Of a DNA stretch of 64,000 nt, positions 55,303 through 55,770 are shown in pieces (positions within the stretch are counted from its first letter, which is position 1; each line of letters opens with the position of its first letter). Source of the stretch: Anoxynatronum buryatiense (GTDB taxonomy: Bacteria > Bacillota > Clostridia > Peptostreptococcales > Tindalliaceae); the NCBI RefSeq assembly GCF_900182905.1, contig NZ_FXUF01000008.1:1-64000 (forward strand), in the 5' to 3' direction. A program made the translations under genes and the position numbers. Below the pieces are notes generated by a model, which saw nothing but the letters and a program-made list of their open reading frames with translations, made no database searches and was not told the origin of the DNA.

Positions 55303-55331
55303 TTGACAAAAAGGTAAATGGGCGCTATAAT
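55303..55331 (+). promoter_or_regulatory. Consensus promoter of the HesB-like selenoprotein gene
   Basis: TTGACA (55303-55308) and TATAAT (55326-55331) at exactly 17 bases: a perfect sigma-A consensus, implying strong constitutive transcription. Confidence 0.92.
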
Positions 55332-55379
55332 GAGGCTAAGAAGATACCCCTGCACCCCGGGGGTGAGGGAGGTAACAAT

Positions 55380-55679
55380 ATGAAAATTACCATCACAGAA
55401 GCAGCAAAAGAGGCGTTGCTGGAGCAGAATGAATCCGGCAAAAAAGTGAGGGTCTATGTGTCTGGTATTGGCTGAGCAGGCCCGCGATTTGCATTGTCTC
55501 TGGATGAGGCAAAAGAAACAGATGTTATGAGTGAAGTGGATGGGATCAGTTTTGTTGTGGATGAAGACACCGACCGCCAGTTTGGAACCGTGATTGTTGA
55601 CTTCAGTTCCGGGTTTCTGGGAAAACGGTTCATGGTGAATTATGCCGGTGGAGGGTCGTTCAGAGGCAGCTGCTCATAA
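55380..55679 (+). CDS. HesB-like selenoprotein (in-frame UGA read as selenocysteine)
   Basis: A 99-residue protein of the HesB/IscA fold (iron-sulfur cluster carrier-like). ATG 55380 follows GGGAGG. At codon 32 the frame meets TGA (55473-55475) but goes on without any other stop to TAA at 55677. The flanking peptide VYVSGIG-U-AGPRFALSLDEA matches the site where IscA/HesB proteins have their first conserved cysteine, so U32 replaces that Cys. HesB-like selenoproteins of this shape are known in bacteria. A stem-loop for selenocysteine insertion lies at 55494-55512. The C-terminal part holds only one cysteine (GSCS) where IscA has CxC. Because of the TGA, automated annotation will probably split it or start it at 55494. 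Confidence 0.88.
55494..55512 (+). promoter_or_regulatory. SECIS element (candidate) of the HesB-like gene
   Basis: TTGTCTC (55494-55500), loop TGGAT (55501-55505), GAGGCAA (55506-55512): a seven-pair stem with one G-T pair. The GG in the apical loop is 27 bases after the TGA, in the range used by bacterial SECIS elements, where an exposed G is read by SelB. Confidence 0.75.
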
Positions 55680-55688
55680 AACAACTGA

Positions 55689-55726
55689 ATTTCAAATGTC
55701 GATCTAAATTTCAAATGTCGATCTAA
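55689..55726 (+). repeat. 19-base tandem duplication
   Basis: ATTTCAAATGTCGATCTAA is present twice, at 55689-55707 and 55708-55726, directly after the selenoprotein gene and before a terminator. Confidence 0.85.
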
Positions 55727-55744
55727 ATGAAAAACAAGACAAAA

Positions 55745-55770
55745 GACAGCCCTCATCCGGCTGTCTTTTT
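55745..55770 (+). terminator. Intrinsic terminator of the selenoprotein gene
   Basis: GACAGCC and GGCTGTC around CTCATCC, followed by TTTTT. Confidence 0.9.

Follow-up and report, generated by a model that had tools for sequence, protein, structure and literature searches.

A HesB-like selenoprotein gene of Anoxynatronum buryatiense with a candidate CsoR-family operator and a possible link to reactive sulfur

Introduction

The A-type Fe-S carriers IscA, SufA and ErpA have three ligand cysteines, among them a C-terminal Cys-x-Cys. The HesB-like selenoproteins, which have the same kind of domain, were listed in 2006 with 11 members among 25 bacterial selenoprotein families, and the protein of Alkaliphilus metalliredigenes was already catalogued at that time (PMC1794560). 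A 2026 review places the family, with its motif UxGP, among selenoproteins that are mostly of unclear function, and also catalogues DUF1858 selenoproteins (PMC13188914). For a Methanococcus HesB-like member, which was identified through mutagenesis together with 75Se labelling, a 2024 paper describes the function as not clear (PMC11097638).

CsoR is classically a copper repressor, and operators of the CsoR family are pseudopalindromes with G-tracts, the type 2 form being ATATACCCCTNAGGGGTATAT (PMC3902906); such operators are also described in PMC10318464. In E. faecalis, a CoA persulfide reductase is under the control of CstR, a dithiol CsoR-like repressor (PMC9405070). In the open-licence literature we found no report that links HesB-like selenoproteins to CsoR/CstR or to persulfide. 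Here we compare a HesB-like selenoprotein gene and its surroundings with these described systems.

Results

Reading through the in-frame TGA

The window, that is, the whole stretch of 64,000 nucleotides of A. buryatiense DNA that was analysed, belongs to a 4.16-Mb assembly of 47 contigs that is 99.81% complete. The features of the locus are as follows.

55303–55308, + strand: −35 box, TTGACA.
55326–55331, + strand: −10 box, TATAAT, at a spacer of 17 bp from the −35 box.
55344–55369, + strand: candidate CsoR-family operator ATACCCCTGCACCCCGGGGGTGAGGG, a C-tract/G-tract repeat with its core at 55347–55363.
55367–55372, + strand: ribosome binding site GGGAGG, 7 nt 5' of the ATG.
55380–55679, + strand: gene for a HesB/IscA-like selenoprotein of 99 residues, Sec32 among them, TGA read through, TAA stop included.
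55473–55475, + strand: UGA as predicted selenocysteine codon (Sec32, motif U-A-G-P), aligning with the Cys codons of Cys homologs.
55494–55512, + strand: predicted SECIS hairpin UUGUCUC-UGGAU-GAGGCAA, 7 bp with a UGGAU loop, from folds and comparison.
55742–55770, + strand: probable intrinsic terminator AAAGACAGCC...GGCTGTCTTT, then T, read directly from the sequence.

As described in the first-pass annotation, the frame is interrupted solely by the TGA at codon 32 (55473–55475) and ends with the TAA at 55677–55679, and 5' of it stand a consensus promoter (TTGACA/TATAAT, 17 bp apart) and a GGGAGG ribosome site. Between the stop codon and the terminator, a 19-nt tandem duplication (AATTTCAAATGTCGATCTA twice) occupies window positions 55688–55725.

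A protein search over 118 genomes, the window's included, returned matches in 88, of which the 29 best-scoring loci (L022–L050, one per genome, L022 being that of the window) were aligned. Exactly one TGA is present in each of the 29, at the aligned codon, such that the column is invariant; U32 and the tail Cys98 are among the invariant residues and are the only invariant Cys/Sec of the set. Near relatives that carry names are two Tindallia sp. and two MAGs of the Clostridiaceae, and Alkaliphilus serpentinus is a more distant one. A cysteine had been expected at the position of the TGA, and indeed TGT or TGC occupies that codon in 20 of the 21 fetched Cys homologs, the frame of the remaining locus (L068) not having been located. 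The possibility that the protein normally begins after the TGA is refuted by the 30–35 residues that precede the Sec codon in the window locus and 28 relatives, with I3, A9 and R24 invariant among them. Substitution is mainly synonymous both before and after the TGA, with dN below dS on both sides for six relatives (Nei–Gojobori; dS saturated in four). Compared with L023 and L024, dN is 0.22 and 0.23 and dS 2.3 and 2.1 before the TGA, and dN 0.07 and 0.08 and dS 1.1 and 1.1 after it.

The Sec machinery for which a search had been proposed is complete in the window genome, where selB, selA, tRNA-Sec (UCA; TCA in the DNA) and selD all lie within 6.5 kb on contig C3. Judged from these sequences, insertion of Sec at 55473–55475 is very nearly certain. 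The reading of the TGA as a true stop, leaving either a pseudogene or a 61-residue protein started at the downstream TTG 55494, which is the only open reading frame that a list with a minimum of 60 residues gives for this frame, was rejected and is extremely improbable given the same-codon TGA and conserved upstream residues of 28 fetched relatives, the low dN relative to dS on both sides, and the complete machinery.

The first-pass annotation had called HesB-like selenoprotein genes rare, which does not hold in this order, as at least 40 of the 118 searched genomes carry one. None of 29 viral-contig stretches that matched a pattern encodes a relative. Within the window genome, selD itself (G000:C3:350937-351857, L019) contains one in-frame TGA and is a second probable selenoprotein gene.

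A hairpin retained with selenocysteine

A hairpin with GG in its loop had been placed 18–37 bases past the TGA and is found at the 19th to 37th base, which agrees to within one base. The folding check bore this out in part: the 7-bp stem with the UGGAU loop does form, but the window sequence taken alone folds no better than its shuffles (z = 0.54 on 58 nt and −0.87 on 41 nt). Since no Rfam family was found in the window at the gathering threshold, the SECIS assignment rests on folding and comparison.

For this comparison, we used 40 Sec loci, comprising the 29 best-scoring loci and 11 of family f11, and scored seven standard pairs at offsets 21–27/33–39, counting the T of the TGA as 0. At least six of the seven pairs form in 32 of the 40 Sec loci versus none of 20 Cys homologs, the remaining Sec loci having five pairs (six loci), four (one) or three (one). 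Only 14 of the 40 have the outermost pair. The pairs covary, with G-C, A-T, T-A and C-G all observed at one position and CTC..GAG replaced by CCC..GGG elsewhere. In addition, the leucine whose codon spans the stem/loop border is encoded by CTG in 39 of the 40 Sec loci versus 2 of the 20 Cys homologs. The predicted SECIS pairs are thus kept in Sec loci and lost in Cys loci.

Relation to the HesB family and the IscA fold

The translated protein scores 38.0 bits against PF01521, above the cut-off of 26.3, and therefore carries a HesB/IscA domain. The nearest NCBIfam model is NF038090 'IscA_HesB_Se' (61.6 bits, cut-off 85), and TIGR01911 'HesB_rel_seleno' ranks fourth (40.8 bits, cut-off 66.35); as both scores lie below the curated cut-offs, the protein is not assigned to either model. 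It does contain the U-x-G-P motif of HesB-like selenoproteins, in the form U32-A-G-P, and, as in the published family, a predicted bacterial SECIS lies just 3' of the UGA in a genome with Sec-decoding machinery. With these properties the predicted protein fits the published family, to which the window gene almost certainly adds a further HesB-like selenoprotein.

An AlphaFold2 model built on 29 sequences reached a pLDDT of 86.2 and a pTM of 0.75, with low confidence in the tail (mean of 59 in the last block). The top three PDB hits in Foldseek were HI1723, IscA and SufA, at E-values of 8e-7 to 5e-6 and TM-scores of 0.62–0.71 (query length), and the profile and structure matches include ErpA, SufA and IscA (1s98, 2d2a, 2apn). 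In this IscA-type fold, Sec32 stands where IscA has its conserved cysteine, and a Gly-rich tail that ends in one invariant cysteine, Cys98, replaces the Cys-x-Cys of IscA. As the Cys-x-Cys is absent, the protein is not classed as an A-type carrier. The fold, the similarity to ErpA, SufA and IscA profiles and structures, and the linkage to Fe-S membrane proteins described below would suit an Fe-S cluster carrier of the IscA/SufA/ErpA kind with Sec as a cluster ligand; we consider this unlikely, given that the C-terminal Cys-x-Cys is missing and that Sec32 and one tail cysteine are the only invariant Cys/Sec.

A C-tract/G-tract repeat at the promoter

Beyond the promoter and ribosome site described in the first-pass annotation, the promoter region contains an inverted repeat, ATACCCCTGCACCCCGGGGGTGAGGG, which takes up part of the stretch from the −10 box to the start codon and overlaps the edge of the ribosome site. 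Its core at 55347–55363 is a C-tract/G-tract pseudopalindrome, as in type 2 CsoR-family operators, with TAC on the left as in that type and GTG on the right instead of the published GTA. We defined a strict element as CCCC-N0-12-GGGG within −110 to −8 of the start codon and a relaxed one as CCC/GGG. The strict element was found in 32 of the 40 Sec loci and the relaxed one in 36, against 35 of 800 shuffles and 3 of 1463 further windows taken from these loci. Spacing in the 32 strict loci is 10.1 +/- 2.2 nt between the −10 box and the site and 20.9 +/- 5.2 nt between the site and the ATG.

Twenty further TGA loci comprise eight with a single-Cys tail, seven of which have the strict element (not L217), and 12 with a multi-Cys tail, none of which has it; L220, of the multi-Cys-tail type, has a relaxed match placed 5' of its −10-like box. 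The element thus tracks the clade and not Sec itself. It is also missing from all of 20 Cys homologs (L192–L211, a set that overlaps the one used for the SECIS comparison and is not identical to it), which is a weak control, since their upstream regions are AT-rich and gave 0 of 400 in shuffles. The 12 multi-Cys-tail loci (L213–L215, L220–L224, L226, L227, L230, L231) belong to another HesB-like clade, which has Sec in these loci and Cys elsewhere.

Similar elements precede other genes. The window genome has a gene for an Fe-S membrane protein, NapH-like by resemblance and by its match in the WSW search described below, that is preceded by TTGACA, then CCACCCCCATGGGGGGAGGG, then a ribosome site. 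A scan of 10 genomes for TATAAT followed by C/G tracts gave 38 hits and the reversed pattern 16, counts that include nested duplicates. Of the 30 scan loci returned, 23 were examined, with nested duplicates and further hesB hits left out. Their targets are hesB-Sec in five (L073, L077, L078, L079, L085), NapH-like genes in five (L076, L080, L087, L094, L100; family libraries run on L080 and L100 only), an ArsP-like permease in two (L092, L097; only L097 profile-tested) and a MATE gene in one (L096), and L084 is the L092 place read on the other strand. The remaining nine were dropped for want of a sensible target (L072, L074, L075, L081, L086, L088, L093, L095, L099). One of these, L099 (G073:C80), matched the pattern through repeats with ATTTCAATCCACGCCCC that we take to be CRISPR-like from their resemblance. 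The two permease genes lie directly 3' of the element (L092 in G102, L097 in G011), and that of L097 matches ArsP_1 (PF03773) weakly, under the cut-off.

Co-occurrence with the probable regulator CsoR-2

Genes of the CsoR family are present in 13 of 13 genomes examined. Two were seen in the window genome, with neighbours named by reading: CsoR-1 lies beside a copper-ATPase-like and a CopZ-like gene, and CsoR-2 near phoB/phoR-like genes, not beside hesB. Upstream of this CsoR-2, the 12 kb that were read contain no strict element. A match of 77 bits or more was counted as CsoR-2, a cut set after the gap down to 72.8 had been seen. The 48 loci of the clade (the 40 Sec loci and the eight single-Cys-tail loci, the 12 multi-Cys-tail loci being left out) then divide into 40 with both the relaxed element and CsoR-2, four with neither, three with the element only and one with CsoR-2 only, which amounts to agreement in 44 of 48 (Fisher p 8.5e-4, uncorrected for relatedness). 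The element stands without a CsoR-2 match in G042 (80% completeness), G061 and G017; CsoR-2 occurs without the element at L046 of G008, where a second hesB copy has it; and both are missing in G040, G117 and G079, which are of one genus, and in G111.

In ten family-f3 genomes, CsoR-2 lies directly 3' of a gene for a small Fe-S membrane protein, 'WSW', which is NapH-like by resemblance and itself matched no NCBIfam model. Nine of the ten genomes with a WSW-CsoR-2 operon have the element in front of it (not G085), and no strict element was found at the CsoR-2 of G091 (L236), which has only a WSW fragment alongside. Together, these patterns make 55344–55369 a probable CsoR-2 operator. An RNA hairpin, acting as a 5' stabiliser or attenuator, would also account for a foldable repeat near the transcript start whose spacer varies in length; that its presence tracks CsoR-2 and that it also precedes WSW-CsoR-2 operons argue against this explanation, to which we give a low probability. 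The distance from the element to the −10 box is tighter than that to the ATG, which is compatible with the operator and RNA readings alike, and the order of the arms, C-tract first and G-tract second, is the search pattern itself and hence no test between them.

CstR, as a persulfide sensor, lacks the copper-ligand His between its two cysteines. Both CstR-type cysteines are present in all 17 CsoR-2 sequences located among 30 loci (second Cys read by eye), and the His position, likewise read by eye, holds H in 13 and N in four of these 17. In eight regulators from the f2 regions described below, this position reads Q, Y, Q, S, H, Y, H and N (by eye). The window genome's CsoR-2 has the set C-H-C, as copper CsoRs also do, and the best NCBIfam model for three tested CsoR-2 proteins is the copper-sensing RicR, at scores far under its cut-off. 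Separately, first-type CsoR loci in four genomes (L103, L104, L106, L116) have a short-spacer palindrome of the ATATCCCCC-GGGGGATAT type after a −10-like box, and the first-type locus with such a palindrome in G073 is followed by a MATE exporter gene.

Recurrent neighbours of hesB-Sec and CsoR-2

WSW matches at E below 1e-40 were obtained in 34 genomes. hesB-Sec lies just 5' of WSW in 17 of these (G010, G016, G021, G032, G038, G045, G053, G057, G061, G066, G077, G083, G089, G095, G100, G110, G115), and CsoR-2 lies just 3' of WSW in another 10. A glutaredoxin-like CxYC frame, identified by pattern only, follows in 14 of the 15 regions fetched for the 17 (not G053), and G095 has a second element between hesB and WSW.

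Eight f2 regions were chosen for having hesB and CsoR-2 on one contig stretch. In these, a hesB-Sec with a single-Cys tail lies 0.35–9.1 kb 5' of CsoR-2 and has the element in all eight. A glutaredoxin-like gene follows it directly in seven (not G084), and a gene for a CoA-disulfide reductase fusion of 830–860 residues lies between hesB-Sec and CsoR-2 in the same seven, in four of them with an element of its own. The single glutaredoxin compared with the family models came nearest to TIGR02196 (82.4 bits, cut-off 88.55), and the single reductase to the CoA-disulfide reductase model TIGR03385 (522 bits, cut-off 579); the C-terminus of this reductase is DsrE2-like (86 bits, cut-off 210).

A search for CoA-disulfide reductase (CoADR)-like genes covered 39 genomes, from which 30 loci were fetched and 28 genes located (not L275; L299 left out). 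The element precedes four of the 28 (G001, G047, G016, G083) and is missing before 24, and the window genome's own CoA-disulfide reductase gene is without it. Upstream of some of the 24 lies a DUF1858-like gene with the element. Such an ORF, with C-x-G-TGA, lies 5' of the CoADR-like gene in six of eight loci scanned, and the element precedes it in all five with a readable start (L284, L291, L293, L295, L301), of which L284 belongs to a genome (G017) without CsoR-2. One tested member matches TIGR03980 at 50.8 bits, over the cut-off of 44.95, when the TGA is taken as C. The five loci are from f5, f11 and f12 genomes, and in them the DUF1858-like ORF has C-x-G-TGA-GG and lies just 5' of the CoADR-like gene.

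These neighbourhoods bear on the signal that CsoR-2 might sense. A copper signal was considered first, with CsoR-2 as a copper-sensing regulator and the selenoprotein as a chaperone or buffer for soft metal (Cu(I)); the C-H-C set of the window genome, the classical role of CsoR (PMC3902906) and the distant RicR match all point that way. It was weighed lower in view of the f2 operons and now appears improbable: the window genome has its separate CsoR-1 beside copper-type genes, three genomes of genus g29 are without CsoR-2 and the element while keeping a lower-scoring CsoR match, the His is replaced by N in four of 17 CsoR-2 and is another residue in six of the eight f2 regulators although both cysteines are kept, and sulfur enzymes are among the f2 neighbours. 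We therefore favour a thiol or persulfide signal over copper, as the copper-type His is often replaced, both cysteines are kept and sulfur enzymes are linked.

Discussion

The protein family to which the window gene belongs is known, and the novelty appears to lie in its regulatory and gene context. Taken jointly, Sec decoding and control by a CsoR-family regulator are likely. We propose that the UGA would be read through by SelB and tRNA-Sec, guided by the SECIS hairpin just 3' of it, and that CsoR-2, as a dithiol CsoR-family repressor bound to the C-tract/G-tract repeat near the transcript start, probably represses the consensus promoter. The signal would most likely be reactive sulfur (persulfide or polysulfide) or a related thiol stress, which would oxidise or persulfidate both repressor cysteines. 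The induced protein would most likely employ its Sec32/Cys98 pair either in accepting or reducing sulfane sulfur or as a redox relay, the partners of which would be the glutaredoxin, the Fe-S membrane protein and the CoA-disulfide (persulfide) reductase encoded by linked genes.

A role of hesB-Sec in reactive-sulfur or thiol chemistry seems to us a little short of an even chance. Slightly more tentative is the broader proposal that the single-Cys-tail HesB clade is an effector of a selenium-dependent reactive-sulfur response, in which a CstR-like repressor would control hesB-Sec, the CxxU DUF1858-like selenoprotein, glutaredoxin, Fe-S membrane electron-transfer proteins and the CoA-persulfide reductase fusion, with Sec32 carrying or reducing sulfane sulfur. 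The shared operator-like element and the recurrent neighbours provide a testable lead on the timing and partners of the HesB-like selenoprotein and, if the proposal is true, selenium use in anaerobes would be linked to reactive-sulfur stress.

The window protein resembles the A-type Fe-S carriers IscA, SufA and ErpA in fold and in the position of the first cysteine, but has Sec in place of that cysteine and is without the Cys-x-Cys tail. With the known HesB-like selenoproteins (TIGR01911, NF038090) it has in common the IscA/HesB domain, a UGA-Sec within U-x-G-P and a bacterial SECIS, whereas it falls into a clade with a single-Cys tail, scores under both NCBIfam cut-offs and, like its clade, is set apart by the C-tract/G-tract element and gene neighbourhood, of which we found no earlier account in the open-licence literature. 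The CstR- and CsoR-controlled operons, exemplified by coaP under CstR in E. faecalis and by the CsoR operators of Streptomyces, are alike in their dithiol CsoR-like repressor and G-tract repeat, and in having a CoA-disulfide reductase fusion among the linked genes. In contrast to these operons, the genes described here, with control that is predicted, add HesB-like and DUF1858-like selenoproteins, a glutaredoxin and Fe-S membrane proteins.
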